From Malacoplasma penetrans HF-2 (lineage in GTDB: Bacteria > Bacillota_I > Bacilli_A > Mycoplasmatales > Mycoplasmoidaceae): DNA of 64,000 nucleotides. The notes beneath the pieces are model-generated. The model saw nothing but the letters and a program-made list of their open reading frames with translations. It ran no database searches and was not told where the DNA came from. The stretch is from NCBI RefSeq assembly GCF_000011225.1, contig NC_004432.1, positions 1 through 64,000 on the forward strand, written 5' to 3'. Shown here in pieces: positions 8,375 to 15,082 of the stretch. A program made the position numbers and the translations under genes. Numbering within the stretch: position 1 is the stretch's first letter; each line of letters starts with the position of its first letter.

Positions 8375-9751
8375 GTACTGTAGCAAATTTTGGATAAACT
8401 CCATTTAGGAAATATTAAGATATTACTAACTGGAGTTTTTATTATGGCAAAAAAAGAAAAATCATCAGCTGAAAAATTATTAGAAAAATTAGGTGTTGAA
8501 AACAAAGAAGATTTTGACAACCTTTTAAAAGAATTAACCAAATCGTTTATAGAAAAAAGTTTAGATGTAGAAATGGATGGCCATTTAGGATATGAAAAAT
8601 GAGATCAGAATTCTAGAGAGTTTTCTAATAACTACCGGAAAGGAAAAACCAAAAAAACTTTAAATACTAAATATGGAAAATTGGATGTAGAAATTCCAAG
8701 AGATGTTAATTCTACATTTGAACCACAATTAGTAAGAAAACATCAAAGAAATTTAAATGACATAGAACACAATATTATTAAACTTTATTCTAAAGGAATG
8801 TCTACTAGAGAAATACAAGATGTTTTCCTAGACATGTATGGTGCAGGAGTAGATAAAGATTTAGTATCAAGAGTTACTGACAAAATTCTTCCTGAAATAC
8901 TTACATGACAGTCTAGACCTTTAGAAGATATATATATCTTATTATCTTTGTTGATGGAATTAGATTTAAAGTTAGAGATGACTCTCAATTTTTAGAAAAA
9001 TCAGTTTATATAATTCTTGGAGTTAATTTAGAAGGAATTAAGGAAATATTAGGTTTTTGAATAGGTGAAACAGAATCTGCTAAACAATGATTAAGTATTT
9101 TTAATGATTTAAAAAGTCGTGGTGTTAAAAAAGTATTTATTTCTTGTTCTGATAATCTAACTGGAATTAGTGATGCTTTTAAAAGTGCTTTCCCAGAAAC
9201 TTACATTCAAAAATGTATTGTTCATCAAGTAAGAAACTCTACAAAATTTGTTAGATATGATCACTTAAAAGAATTTACTGCAGATATGAAAAAAATCTAT
9301 CAAGCACCAAATTTTGATGTATCTATGAAAGCTTTAAAAATATTTACTGAAAAGTGATCTTCTAAATATGGCTATGCAACTAAATCTTGAAATAATAATA
9401 TAGAAGAGTTAACTACTTTCTTTCAATTTCCTGCAGAAATTAGAAGGCTAATTTACACTACAAATTTAATTGAAAATGTTAATAGAAATATTAGGAAGAT
9501 AACAAAAGCAAAAGGTGGAATTACATCTGTTAATGCATTATCTAAATTAATTTATTTAAGATTGATTAATATTTCAGAAAATTGGAAATCAAGAGTTGCT
9601 AATTGGGGTTTAATATTACAACAATTAAAAATCCTATTTGAAAATGAAATATAGGTTATTTCAAAATCAAACAGGATATGATATAAATTAAATCACTATA
9701 AACATTAGAAATGTTTAAAACCTAAATTGGACTTTATCCAAAAATCAGTAC
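8375..9751 (+). mobile_element. IS256-family insertion sequence, defective copy
   Basis: Imperfect terminal inverted repeats bound the element. The left end starts GTACTG at 8375 and continues into TTTTGGATAAACTCC. The reverse complement of the right end (9751 back) starts GTACTG and continues into TTTTTGGATAAAGTCC, so about 30 bp match with a 4-bp gap. The element is about 1.38 kb and carries one transposase frame. The flanking octamers (before 8375 and after 9751) do not match, so no target duplication is seen. The right end abuts a decayed IS3-type transposase. Confidence 0.8.
8444..9654 (+). pseudogene. IS256-family (mutator) transposase with a frameshift in an (AT)5 tract
   Basis: The first part matches the family N-terminal half: MDGHLGYEK, STREIQDVFLDMYGAGVDKDLVSRVTDKI, then a Trp-encoding TGA and RPLEDIY. 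The frame then fails at an (AT)5 run at 8928-8937. Removing one AT unit restores D-I-Y-L-I-I-F-V-D-G-I-R-F, the conserved strand with the first catalytic Asp. The rest continues intact through GVKKVFISCSDN, CIVHQVRNS and LIYTTNLIENVNRNIRK to TAG at 9652. The corrected product would be 402 aa, normal for IS256. The CDS has a GGAG upstream of ATG 8444. The copy is inactive unless slippage restores the frame. Confidence 0.88.
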
Positions 9752-10187
9752 ATTACCGCTGTCTCAGATATCAAAATGTACTTGTATAACTTTTTAAAAG
9801 TAAATAATTATTTTATTTATTTAAGTCATGTTATATATTTAAGAAACAAAGACCTAGTGATTTTTTTAAAAAAAAGAAATGATTTAAATATTGTTATGAA
9901 AACTTTTTGCAATAATGACTTTAGTAAGTATGAAATAGCTTATAGTGATCACAAAGCATAATACATAAGCAATATTTAAAATTATGTTAATTGGATATAA
10001 TACAGAAAACATCAGTGCAAAAGTCTGAAATCTTTACATAATGAGCTTATAAATCACTTCTGATTAGTATTTAACCAAGAATACTGAAATAATATTGATA
10101 CAAATAGTCTTAGTAATGAAGGAATTTGTAAAGAAACTACAAATGCAATTAATAGATCAATTTCAAAAGAATTTAAATTATTTTAGG
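9752..10187 (+). pseudogene. Decayed IS3-family transposase fragment (integrase core)
   Basis: From the IS256-type right end onward the translation reads VSDIKMYLYN, FIYLSHVIYLRNKDLVIF, RNDLNIVMKT and IAYSDHKAQYIS. This resembles the rve core of IS3-type transposases (TDIT, FLYLSPVIDLYNREI, HSDQGSQYTS) including two catalytic Asp positions. An ochre stop at 9959-9961 and further frameshifts break it. A later segment, LHNELINHFWLVFNQEYWN, resembles the region with the catalytic Glu. The N-terminal part is not found on the other side of the IS256-type element. Similarity was judged by eye. Confidence 0.5.
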
Positions 10188-10453
10188 TAGATTAACCCCT
10201 ATATGTCTTAGTTGTATTATTGATTAGTAAAACACTTATATAAAAATAAAAAACACTGCATTTTAAATTCAGTATAATCACAAATTTGTGTAGTTATTGA
10301 GGAATAGTAATTTACATTATGATCATTTAACTTACTTATTACTAAGTGTAATTTTTAAATTTAAATTCAAAAGAAAGCACTATCTGAAAATATATTATTT
10401 TTAAACTATTAAATGTGTTTTAAGTAAATAAGATATTTCCTAAGAACAATGAT

Positions 10454-10511
10454 AATAACAATGGAAGTTAATCTAATTCAAAGAATAGCTAACATTGTTA
10501 TTTTTTCTTTT
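10454..10511 (+). terminator. Terminator-like hairpin
   Basis: Arms AATAACAATG (10454-10463) and CATTGTTATT (10493-10502) form a 10-bp perfect stem with a 29-nt loop, followed by a T-rich run. It lies between the IS remnants and the AT-rich partition/origin region. Confidence 0.55.
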
Positions 10512-10777
10512 TGCAATGATTTTTAAAAGAAAAAAAGAAAATTTAACCTTATTTATTGTTTTTATAAAGCAAATATTTTTTATTATCAATAATTACGTAA
10601 TTAATTATATATTCATAATTATAATAATTACAATTACATAATTTTTTAGGTAATTGTTTAAAAAATAAAATAGTTCTAAATTTTTGGATTTCAACAAAAA
10701 TCATTTTTTAAAGATCAAAAACACACTTTAAACAAGTTTTAAGCATATTTTAAGAGATTTTAAATCAAAAACAATGA

Positions 10778-11369
10778 TTTTACACAGAATTGATTTTTAT
10801 TCTTCTCAGAGAGCTTTATTTTGATTTTTTTTACTAGAAAAAACAATTTTTAATTTTTTACTAATCCAACGACTTTCCAACACTTTTTAACTATTACTTT
10901 AGTAATAGTTAATATAACATAATTTTTTGAAAAAACAAGAGAAAATTTCAAAAAGTGAATTTTATTTTTTAAGTATTACTAAAGTAATACTTAAATTATA
11001 CACAAAGTTTAGCTTATTTCAAGAGAGATGTTTAGAAATCTTTCAATCATTACTTGGATTTCAGGTATAAAAATCAAAATAAAACTAATTTTTTCACAAT
11101 TATGAAAATTTAAGCAAAAAATATTCAAATAAACCTATTTTTAAAGCATTTTAAGAGGTTTTAAATAAAGTCTAGTGGTTTCCTACTGAAAATTATATAA
11201 AGTGTCTTAAAAAGGCTTATTTTGAAAAATACAGATATTTTACACACAGATAAAAGAGTTGATAGTTGTTTTATACCCGATATATTCCATAACTAATTAC
11301 GTAATTATTGAATAAAAACCCTGAAAACCTTGTTCTTGATAAAAAAGTTTCCATTTATTGTGTGTAAAA
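10778..11369. promoter_or_regulatory. Cluster of five DnaA-box-like 9-mers (TTWTNCACA)
   Basis: Matches are TTTTACACA 10778-10786, TTATACACA 10996-11004, TTTTTCACA 11090-11098, TTTTACACA 11238-11246 and TGTGTAAAA (minus strand) 11361-11369. TTWTNCACA is the classical bacterial DnaA-box consensus. At roughly 80 percent A+T I estimate well under one match per 1.8 kb on both strands by chance. No such box occurs in the dnaA-dnaN spacer. Binding is inferred. Confidence 0.5.
10888..10994. repeat. Pair of perfect inverted repeats with complementary cores
   Basis: The first, 10888-10911, has arms TAACTATTAC and GTAATAGTTA around TTTA. The second, 10969-10994, has arms TTAAGTATTAC and GTAATACTTAA around TAAA. 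The cores ATTACTTTAGTAAT and ATTACTAAAGTAAT are reverse complements of each other, so the two sites face opposite ways 81 bp apart. They lack a T tail suited to a terminator and may be protein-binding sites. Confidence 0.6.
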
Positions 11370-11739
11370 TCAATAAAAACATAACTAATTACGTAATTAT
11401 TGATATGAAAGGACAATATTGCATTTAGACTAGGATAAAAGGTACTTTATATCAATAAAAATGTAATTGATTACGTAATTATTAAAAATATCTATGTTTT
11501 TAAAGGGTTAAAAAGTAACAATAGTTTAAAATTTGTCAATAAAAACATAACTAATTACGTAATTATTGATAATTAATTTAAAAGAAAGTAATAATTTTAA
11601 TGGTTAATTTGAATTAACAAGCACTATTTCAAATAATAATGTAATTGATTACGTAATTATTGTTTTATTTATAAAAAAACAACTAAAAGTAATTTCTTTT
11701 ATATAAAAACCATTAATTGTATAACTAATTACGTAATTA
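11294..11739. repeat. Six spaced palindromes TAATTACGTAATTA upstream of parA (candidate parS/centromere)
   Basis: The 14-bp palindrome lies at 11294-11307, 11386-11399, 11552-11565 and 11726-11739; TGATTACGTAATTA (one mismatch) lies at 11468-11481 and 11646-11659. A seventh copy is upstream at 10590-10603. Start-to-start spacing is 92, 82, 84, 94 and 80 bp. The flanks are partly conserved: ATAAC before and TTATTG after most copies. CG dinucleotides are otherwise rare here, so ACGT centres stand out. They lie just upstream of parA and a probable ribbon-helix-helix protein, as centromeres do in type Ib partition systems. Confidence 0.7.
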
Positions 11740-12010
11740 TAGAAATTTTTAATTTTTTTTAAAAAATTTATAGATTTTTAAATCATTTTTAATAATTATG
11801 TATTTAATTACTTTTACACCATTAAAAGAATTACTTTTTAAGTTATGTAAATAGTTACTTTTTAATTATCTAATTAATTATCTAAAAAATTACTTATAAA
11901 ATTATGTATTCAATTATGTATTTATATATATAATTATTTAGATAACTAAAAAAGTAATTTTTAAAGTAATTATTGGTTATTTTAAAGGTTTATGAACTAT
12001 AAGGAGTCTT

Positions 12011-12838
12011 ATGAAAATAGGAGTAGTTAATAATAAAGGTGGTGTACTGAAAACCACTTTATCAACCAATTTAGCAGCATCGTTATCTTTAGATGGTAAA
12101 AAAGTCATTATTGTTGACCTTGATGGACAAGGTAATGTTATTGCTACATTTGGTAAAAAACCAGATGATTTAGAATTTGCTATAATGGATTTTTTAAAAG
12201 GGAAATGTTACTGAGAAGATATTTTAATTAAGAAAACTGAAAATCTTCATATTCTTCCTGGGAATGATGAATTAAACTATTTTGACTTTTTGTTAAATCA
12301 AAAACAAATAACTCAATCTAACTTAAAGATGCTTATCAACAAATTAGATGAGCTTTATGATTATGTAATTATAGACACACCACCAGCAATGTCAGTTGTT
12401 GTTGCCACAACACTATCAATAGTTGATGTAGCACTTGTTCCATTTGAACCTGATCAATATGCAACATTAGGTTTAAAAAGAATTATTAATGCTGCAAAAG
12501 AATTTAAAGAAAAAAATAACCACAACATGAAAATTGTGGCTATTCCTACAAAGGTTAATACAAGAGTTACTATTCACAATGATATTATTGAACAATCTCT
12601 TAAACCAAAACTTAAAACACAAGGTGTGTATGTAACATCTAATTTTATTAGTTCAACAACAAAATCAACTGCAGCTGTTGGTTATGAAAGAGTTCCAATT
12701 GTTATGAGTGTTTTTAAAAGTAAATATCAAGATGAATACCACAACTTAAAAAAAGAAATTTTAAATTATGTAATTTTTGGTAGAGAAACATCAGTAAACA
12801 ATGGAAATCAAGAAAATAGTTTTGGAGAAAATTTTTAA
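12011..12838 (+). CDS. parA: ParA/Soj-type partition ATPase
   Basis: This deviant-Walker ATPase of the ParA/MinD superfamily positions DNA cargo by ATP-dependent binding to nucleoid DNA. It encodes 275 aa with one UGA Trp (12212-12214). The deviant Walker A NKGGVLKTT is at 8-16 with both signature lysines (Lys9, Lys14). IVDLDGQGN is near 36-44 and YVIIDTPPAM near 118-127. The Leu in KGGVLKT instead of the common Gly is seen in some Gram-positive plasmid-type ParAs. The ribosome-binding site is AAGGAG. It is followed 12 bp later by the probable DNA-binding partner gene. Confidence 0.92.
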
Positions 12839-12850
12839 TGGTGAAAGAAG

Positions 12851-13678
12851 ATGGCAAGTAAAAAAAGAAAATTTACATTTACTGATTTAGCAGATGATGA
12901 TTTTGTTGACCAACAAGAAAACCAAAACACTACAAAACCAAGTGAAAATATAAATTTCACATTAAATGATTTAAAAAATGACCAAAAACCAGAACCTATT
13001 GTTCAACAAAACAACCATAGTGTTGAAAAAAAAGAAACTAATCAAGAACCAACAATAGTTAACACTGCTATTGCAAATAATGAACCAACTAAAAGTGAAT
13101 CTTTAAGTGAAGAAATTATTTATGAAAAATACAATTTAGAAAATGATAACCAACAACCTTCTTCTGTAGAAAATAATAACAAGATTGAAGTACAAAATAC
13201 TGAAACAGACAATAAAAATAATCAAGTAACTGAAAAAAAAGTATATGAGGTTAATTATGATGATATTTTAAATGATTCAGTTCCTCAAAAAAACAAAGAA
13301 GTTATTGATAGTCTTATTGAGAAAAAAGACCCTATAAAAGAACTTTTTAATACAAAAGAAGAAAAAGAAAATCCACAAAACTCTGAAGATTCTGAACAAG
13401 AAACTAAAGTATATAAAAATTTAAAACCAAGATCTACTGTGAAAACATATAATGAGGCTTTAAAAAAACAAGAACAAAGACAAGTTGATGTTCATTTTGA
13501 AGAAAACAAAATAAAACAATTTCTAAATGTTAGAGAAAAATTAGAAGTTAAAACAAATATTTATTTAAAAAATAGCATTGTAATTAAATTAAGTGAATTA
13601 GAAGCTAGAACTAATGAAAGTAGATCATCTATTATTAATAAACTAATAGAAATAGCTTTAAAAACAATTGAAGAGTAA
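12851..13678 (+). CDS. Probable centromere-binding partner with C-terminal ribbon-helix-helix-like domain
   Basis: A 275-aa protein with no UGA codon. Residues 1-210 are hydrophilic, rich in Asn, Gln, Glu and Lys, and probably disordered, with short repeated FTFTDL/FTLNDL motifs near residues 8 and 36. The C-terminal 45 residues (NIYLKNSIVIKLSELEARTN then ESRSSIINKLIEIALK) have the strand-helix-turn-helix pattern of ribbon-helix-helix DNA-binding proteins. It resembles no ParB/Spo0J HTH protein. Placement directly after parA and the palindrome array suggests it loads on those palindromes. Function is inferred from context. Confidence 0.65.
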   Translation: MASKKRKFTFTDLADDDFVDQQENQNTTKPSENINFTLNDLKNDQKPEPIVQQNNHSVEKKETNQEPTIVNTAIANNEPTKSESLSEEIIYEKYNLENDNQQPSSVENNNKIEVQNTETDNKNNQVTEKKVYEVNYDDILNDSVPQKNKEVIDSLIEKKDPIKELFNTKEEKENPQNSEDSEQETKVYKNLKPRSTVKTYNEALKKQEQRQVDVHFEENKIKQFLNVREKLEVKTNIYLKNSIVIKLSELEARTNESRSSIINKLIEIALKTIEE

Positions 13679-14263: not shown

Positions 14264-14537
14264 TTAATGCAATTGAGCTAATTCTCTAGCAATTGTTGGA
14301 CATCTTTTGATTTTTGATACATCTTCCTTAAGGACTGCAACATCTTCCTTAAGAACTGTTACATCCTTTTTAAGAACTCTTATATCTGATTCAATCAATT
14401 CTAATTTATCTAAAATTTTACCCAAGACCTCTCAAATAGGGTCTTTTGGATCTTTAGGTTTTTGATATTTTTTAGTTTTAGATGCTTTCATATTACCTTC
14501 AAACACTGATGTTTCAATTATATCATCTGTCTTTCGA
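14264..14537 (-). pseudogene. 5'-truncated paralogue of the neighbouring coiled-coil repeat protein
   Basis: This is a near-identical copy of the C-terminal part of the gene at 14624-15082, from the ETSVFEGNMKASKTKKYQKP segment to the terminal RELAQL. Homology stops abruptly near 14537, removing the N-terminal domain. It has only three heptad units (LKKDVTV, LKEDVAV, LKEDVSK) against five in the full copy. A 75-codon frame from ATG 14491 to TAA 14264 remains, but no good ribosome-binding site precedes it. Probably a duplication remnant. Confidence 0.75.
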
Positions 14538-14623
14538 CAGGAAATTAATCAGCAAACCCATTAAAAAATATGAGTTTTATTGTGTTTATAAAAAAAACCA
14601 AACTTTTTTAATTCTTTATTTTA

Positions 14624-15082
14624 TTAGTTAAGTTGAGCTAATTCTCTAGTAATTGTTGGACATCTTTTGATTTTTGACATATCTTCTTTAAGAACAGCAA
14701 CATCTTCCTTAAGAACGGCAACATCCTCTTTAAGAACAGCTACATCTTCTTTAAGAACTGTTACATCCTCTTTAAGAATTCTTATATCTGATTCAATCAC
14801 TTCTAATTTATCTAAAATTTTACCCAAGACCTCTCAAATAGGGTCTTTTGGATCTTTAGGTTTTTGATATTTTTTAGTTTTAGATGCTTTCATATTACCT
14901 TCAAACACTGATGTTTCAATTATATCACCTGTCTTTTGATCTTCATATGAACTCAATGATATGAAAAAGTTATCAACATCTATAAATTTGCAACCTTTAA
15001 TCATTTCTATAAACTCTTTTTCAGAATATTTTCCTTTAAAAGGTTTATTTTTGTTATTTTTAATGTTTTTGTTTTCTTTCAT
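14624..15082 (-). CDS. Coiled-coil heptad-repeat protein, DUF16-like
   Basis: 152 aa, reading the TGA near 14831 as Trp. The N-terminal part (YSEKEFIEMIK, then a KYQKPKDPKDPIW linker near 75-87) is followed by a coiled coil made of heptads LKEDVTV, LKEDVAV (three times) and LKEDMSK. The layout recalls the DUF16 proteins of Mycoplasma pneumoniae, which also join a short conserved head to a variable heptad coiled coil; family membership is by resemblance only. AAAGGAG precedes the ATG. The heptads are encoded by 21-bp tandem repeats. Function unknown. Confidence 0.7.
14681..14785 (-). repeat. Five 21-bp tandem repeats encoding coiled-coil heptads
   Basis: Units start at 14681, 14702, 14723, 14744 and 14765, each one heptad long, differing by a few bases. 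The truncated copy near 14318-14384 has about three units, so copy number has already changed between paralogues. Confidence 0.85.

Follow-up and report, generated by a model that had tools for sequence, protein, structure and literature searches.

A candidate chromosomal type Ib-like ParA–ribbon-helix-helix–centromere system near oriC in Malacoplasma penetrans

A 2016 review held that the centromere-binding proteins of bacterial chromosomes are all helix-turn-helix (HTH) ParBs (PMC5002424), and other reviews describe the Mycoplasmataceae as lacking par genes (PMC7022226, PMC4368675). Plasmid pSM19035 partitions with a ribbon-helix-helix (RHH) protein and requires at least four contiguous repeats for full ATPase activation (PMC9499535), while the only chromosomal RHH partner that we found described is archaeal SegB (PMC12284271). 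Our search of the literature, mostly without subscription journals, found no published account of a mycoplasma partner. We studied the first 64,000 bp (positions 1–64000, “the window”) of the single 1,358,633-bp contig of M. penetrans HF-2, which starts with dnaA and in which an initial annotation had seen regularly spaced ACGT-centred palindromes upstream of parA as a candidate centromere. We consider it likely that this locus is a chromosomal type Ib-like ParA–RHH–centromere system near oriC, and one that probably segregates the chromosome. What the sequences themselves establish is the exclusivity and conservation of the sites, a conserved gene pair, the RHH match, the lack of ParB and the ancestry of ParA.

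Six TRATTACGTAATTA sites occupy 11294–11739 at spacings of 92, 82, 84, 94 and 80 bp, with a seventh copy at 10590 (Table 1), just where and as regularly as first annotated. They lie 10.6–11.7 kb from dnaA (at position 1), i.e., near oriC, in a locus that runs gyrA, remains of an IS256-type transposase, ~2 kb without genes, parA, a 275-aa ORF and a trmL-like gene. The gene-free, AT-rich setting was likewise borne out, with no plausible gene in the ORF list for 9962–12010 and a GC content of 18.6% over 10001–12000; an Rfam search of the region found no RNA. The transposase (8390–9654, between gyrA and the array) is split into two frames, and gyrA and parA stand farther apart in the window than in two relatives (G004 and G009). 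On the minus strand at 14264–15082, two related ORFs, an apparent duplication, carry 21-bp tandem repeats that encode a VLKEDVA coiled-coil-like stretch.

Table 1. Sequence features around parA (positions in the window)
Feature	Position	Strand	Description
Distal ACGT palindrome	10590..10603	.	exact TAATTACGTAATTA; position kept in G004, G007, G009
Class II inverted repeat 1	10886..10912	.	ACTATTACT-TT-AGTAATAGT
Class II inverted repeat 2	10969..10995	.	AGTATTACT-AA-AGTAATACT; 82 bp from repeat 1
Array site 1	11294..11307	.	exact TAATTACGTAATTA
Array site 2	11386..11399	.	exact TAATTACGTAATTA
Array site 3	11468..11481	.	TGATTACGTAATTA, 1 mismatch
Array site 4	11552..11565	.	exact TAATTACGTAATTA
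Array site 5	11646..11659	.	TGATTACGTAATTA, 1 mismatch
Array site 6	11726..11739	.	exact TAATTACGTAATTA
AATTA/TAATT half-site array	11793..11975	.	12-bp period, degenerate
parA	12011..12838	+	275-aa ParA ATPase (code 4), no N-terminal HTH, Walker A KGGVLKTT
Partner gene	12851..13678	+	275 aa (code 4); N-terminal KKRKFTFTDLADDDF, disordered linker, C-terminal RHH ~residues 229–275

A pattern search of the whole 1.36-Mb genome at up to one mismatch places TRATTACGTAATTA at seven positions, all of them within 10590–11739. Markov models predict ~0.01 exact and ~1 one-mismatch copies per genome, the clustering of all seven sites in 1.15 kb has a chance probability of ~3e-18, and spacing as regular as the array's arises in ~5e-5 of random placements. 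The composition of the region (81% AT) and spacer sequence partly common to several array sites could point to chance, low-complexity AT-rich repeats or recent duplication, but we regard such an origin as next to impossible: it sits badly with the expected copy number and with a palindrome core that alone is constant across divergent species, and it is refuted by the cross-species exclusivity of the sites. Specifically, in the nine parA-bearing genomes of the genus, 50 of 50 copies of RATTACGTAATY are confined to the parA locus (counted from coordinates, 42 upstream of parA, within ~2.3 kb, and 8 intragenic). The question of scattered copies of the 14-mer, raised with the initial annotation, is thereby answered in favor of a parA-specific motif; the tenth genus genome (G002), a fragmented assembly, has neither parA nor motif.

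The array extends to a second genus, where exact sites lie at −155, −88 and −32 from parA (G011), and throughout these divergent species the 10-bp core ATTACGTAAT is constant while array spacing and flanks vary. Neighboring sites are ~60–70 bp apart in G001, G004 and G007 and 18–74 bp apart in G006 and G008, with some preference for multiples of 10.5 bp among genomes that are not independent of one another; blastn of the upstream regions was hampered by their composition. The sites at one locus may number a dozen or more over 1–2 kb, with distal clusters 0.7–2.2 kb upstream and an intragenic one. As a separate observation, the codons GAT TAC GTA ATT at parA +347 (window 12358–12371) restore the site core in 7/9 genus genomes and may form an intragenic site; TAC is the rarer tyrosine codon (0.13–0.24 in the genomes measured), and M. 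penetrans has TAT at this position.

Such numbers bear on what the palindromes are for. They might be an operator array only, used by the RHH protein or ParA to regulate parA–parB, while ParA does a non-segregation job, e.g., DnaA control or the positioning of some other cargo; the sites do lie upstream of parA, the half-site array extends to the start codon region, the parA operon of genus g7 adjoins dnaA, and plasmid RHH partition proteins also act as repressors (PMC4498918). We find this unlikely, as a dozen or more sites over 1–2 kb, with distal and intragenic clusters, exceed an operator's needs, and as the near-origin position and the absence of sites elsewhere suit a centromere. Considerably less likely still is that the sites serve replication initiation or another origin-proximal process (as DnaA-like or nucleoid-protein sites) and that their link with parA is positional, although the array is ~11 kb from dnaA and, in M. 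gallisepticum, an oriC containing short repeats is annotated in the dnaN–soj gap (PMC3835672). On the contrary, the array in the genus does not stand at dnaA and follows parA even where the neighbor genes differ (G011, G020). The DnaA box is TTATCCACA, and the site is unlike it.

Two further elements of the upstream region were missed by the initial annotation. Adjoining the parA start (~11793–11975) is a degenerate 12-bp-period array of AATTA/TAATT half-sites, possibly an operator or a contiguous binding platform, and farther upstream are two “class II” inverted repeats (consensus ASTATTACT-WW-AGTAATAST, at 10890 and 10972), whose half-sites ATTAC/GTAAT are those of the ACGT palindrome set 4 bp further apart. 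The class II repeat is among the best-conserved intergenic blocks and recurs in one or two copies, always upstream of parA, in 8/8 genus genomes with enough upstream sequence; none was found elsewhere in those eight genomes or in other genera of the family. We also considered these repeats as recombination sites of an invertible segment and rejected the idea: the central dinucleotide (AA/TT) is not the same in G004 and G007, yet the stretch that the repeats enclose has kept its orientation, which counts against recombination.

In g7, which takes in a 580,076-bp M. genitalium-sized genome and M. gallisepticum-like genomes, the upstream regions hold no ACGT site and instead carry RRTAYY repeats with an 11-bp period. 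Triple units number six in G024, four in G015 and two in G033, all upstream of parA (12/12), with zero or one match in reversed controls. Arrays of this kind lie between parA and dnaN in L066 (1–330, from the 580,076-bp genome), L063 and L067. The putative DNA-contacting strand of the partner reads GVHFYT or GMHFYT in g7 vs. KTNIYL, and the joint change of strand and site hints at co-evolution. If the system is confirmed, some of the “short repeats” that precede soj in M. gallisepticum and have been read as oriC (PMC3835672) may be centromere.

The ParA encoded downstream, whose gene is preceded by a Shine-Dalgarno-like AAGGAG, has its Walker A motif at residue 9 and an AAA_31/ParA match from residue 3, with no N-terminal HTH. 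All 16 mycoplasma ParAs have the Walker A form KGGVLKT[TS], as do, in the form KGG[VAI]LKT[TS], 11 of the 14 Firmicute plasmid ParAs compared; mollicute Soj proteins have KGGVGKTT. In a tree of 41 ParAs, for which the plasmid sample was picked by similarity to the query, KGGxLKT ParAs separate from the rest, mollicute Soj included, with 100/100 support, and mycoplasma ParAs form one clade beside ParAs from plasmids of lactic acid bacteria, a modestly supported placement (85/71); pSM19035 delta falls outside the KGGxLKT plasmid group, its placement unsure on a long branch. The module most likely derives from a Firmicute plasmid and took the place of Soj–Spo0J–parS in the common ancestor of the Mycoplasmoidaceae concerned. 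Capture of a plasmid module by the chromosome is the natural interpretation, and we infer its direction. As parA lies on the chromosome, 12 kb from dnaA, and not on a plasmid, our claim is limited to a locus that “works like” type Ib and is plasmid-derived.

The ORF that follows parA is our proposed centromere-binding protein. It adjoins parA in 16/16 loci first compared and in six further g7 genomes, is conserved across the genus and g3, and is recognized after parA in g7 and g8 by gene position and architecture. All partners begin with a basic N-terminus that bears F-x-D-L-A/S (in g8, FDEL) and continue through a linker rich in disorder-prone residues to a C-terminal domain, e.g., VKTNIYLKNSIVIKLSELEARTNESRSSIINKLIEIAL; the N-terminal motif is present in 13/16 mycoplasma partners and 7/11 plasmid partners (omega included) vs. 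6/92 control ORFs. The most divergent form, QSLQLYVYPDVKREVAKIMNKYNLSENAVGNILL, is that of g8 (G016 and G025), in which no recognized array stands upstream of parA. Plasmid partners in turn have a basic N-terminus, F-x-[DE]-hydrophobic-A, an Asn-rich linker and a short C-terminal domain, and one exceeds the RHH_3 cut-off.

That the gene directly behind the array and parA encodes a probable RHH protein, as the initial annotation held, is supported by several comparisons with relatives. The domain passes the Pfam cut-offs for RHH_3 in G005 and for RHH_1 in G008, RHH families give weak matches in the proteins most closely related to the window partner, and a 12-sequence C-terminal profile gave weak PDB matches to TraM and CopG; no Pfam family scored for the window protein itself in a scan up to E=1, and a PDB profile search with the five closest C-termini matched no chain. 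Foldseek with the domain returned 11/11 matches that are RHH or RHH-containing (MatP, PutA, CopG, CdbA, YiiF), at E-values >1. AlphaFold2 monomer models show an all-helical C-terminal domain (helical also where a beta-strand was expected) and, for the whole protein, mostly disorder, and we rejected them as proof of the RHH fold; poor strand modeling may fit a domain that forms its sheet only upon dimerization. Profile–profile comparison between the RHH domains of mycoplasma and plasmid partners is weak (probability 24%), so we base homology between the two sets of partners on gene order, architecture and the ParA tree.

A difference from the classical Spo0J parS site had also been noted at the outset, and it extends to the protein. 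A ParB_N (PF02195) search that detected the controls gave no match in the window genome or in any family genome searched, a separate element of G020 excepted; where parA is retained in the order's other families, ParB_N is encoded beside it. In the G020 element (G020:C95:7092-8265, g3), which is perhaps mobile or a contamination, an additional ParA is accompanied by a gene for ParB_N. The canonical 16-bp parS has no match in the genome at 0–1 mismatches, one at two mismatches, far from dnaA, and 18 at up to three vs. 11 for the reversed control. A PF02463 search found an SMC gene, whose presence fits all explanations alike.

The parA–RHH pair is found in every examined Mycoplasmoidaceae genome with a KGGxLKT-type ParA, the M. 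genitalium-sized one included. Among 95 family genomes, that ParA is present in g1 (9/10), g3 (2/3), g7 (11/11) and g8 (2/2) and was not found in g4, g5 and g6; this patchy distribution over genera implies that the system goes back to an ancestor of part of the family or has been lost more than once, and that, with several genera lacking it, it is not essential to the family. With somewhat less assurance than for the locus itself, we favor a broader history in which several Mycoplasmoidaceae genera, among them M. genitalium relatives, came to rely mainly on a plasmid-derived ParA–RHH module for chromosome segregation in place of Soj–Spo0J–parS, with a centromere sequence that changed between genera together with the DNA-contacting strand of the RHH protein.

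For the working of the system we infer partner binding, ATPase stimulation, autoregulation and chromosome segregation. RHH dimers of the 275-aa partner would bind the TRATTACGTAATTA palindromes ~11 kb from dnaA and build a partition complex near oriC, with the spaced palindromes as high-affinity loading sites. The flexible basic N-terminus (KKRKFTFTDLADDD) would touch nucleoid-bound ParA and stimulate its ATPase, and upon ATP hydrolysis the complex would track the ParA gradient, by analogy with pSM19035 and TP228; we propose that, because the ATPase is thus stimulated, new origins move apart along that gradient. The 12-bp-period array could supply contiguous repeats for ATPase activation and serve as operator, and the partner probably represses parA via these promoter-proximal half-sites.

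If true, an RHH-based centromere would for the first time be documented on a bacterial chromosome, and the mycoplasma ParA, apparently an orphan, would have its missing partner. Confirmation would break the HTH-only rule for bacterial chromosomal centromere-binding proteins, establish that a plasmid inheritance module was domesticated as a chromosome centromere, give a testable answer to how near-minimal cells sort chromosomes (e.g., M. genitalium, which keeps ParA and has no ParB) and offer three-component segregation modules for minimal-cell design.

Among known systems, chromosomal Soj–Spo0J–parS (ParABS) likewise has ParA adjoining a DNA-binding partner and palindromic sites near oriC, but the mycoplasma locus is without a ParB_N CTPase and without TGTTTCACGTGAAACA sites, and its ParA belongs to another clade. 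SegAB of the Sulfolobales is similar by description, with a chromosomal ParA orthologue, an RHH protein and palindromes upstream of segA (PMC12284271); it is, however, archaeal, and SegB sites are scattered over the chromosome. The plasmid-like type Ib character first suggested for the locus is backed by the KGGxLKT Walker A, the ParA tree and partner architecture: as in pSM19035 delta–omega–parS and TP228 ParF–ParG, a small ParA without HTH is followed by an RHH gene with an unstructured basic N-terminus, and repeats lie upstream of parA. Type Ib systems differ in being plasmid-borne, the mycoplasma partner (137–287 aa) has a long disordered linker, its ParA has Walker A KGGVLKTT and is distant from pSM19035 delta, and discrete 14-bp palindromes 80–94 bp apart plus a 12-bp-period array replace the contiguous 7-bp heptads of pSM19035 (PMC9499535). 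Modules of a KGGxLKT ParA and a small hypothetical protein on Firmicute plasmids (Bacillus, Exiguobacterium, lactobacilli, Enterococcus) are plasmid-borne too, and their partners have DNA-binding domains of other sequence, but they share with the mycoplasma locus the Walker A variant, the side of the ParA tree and the architecture of the partner.
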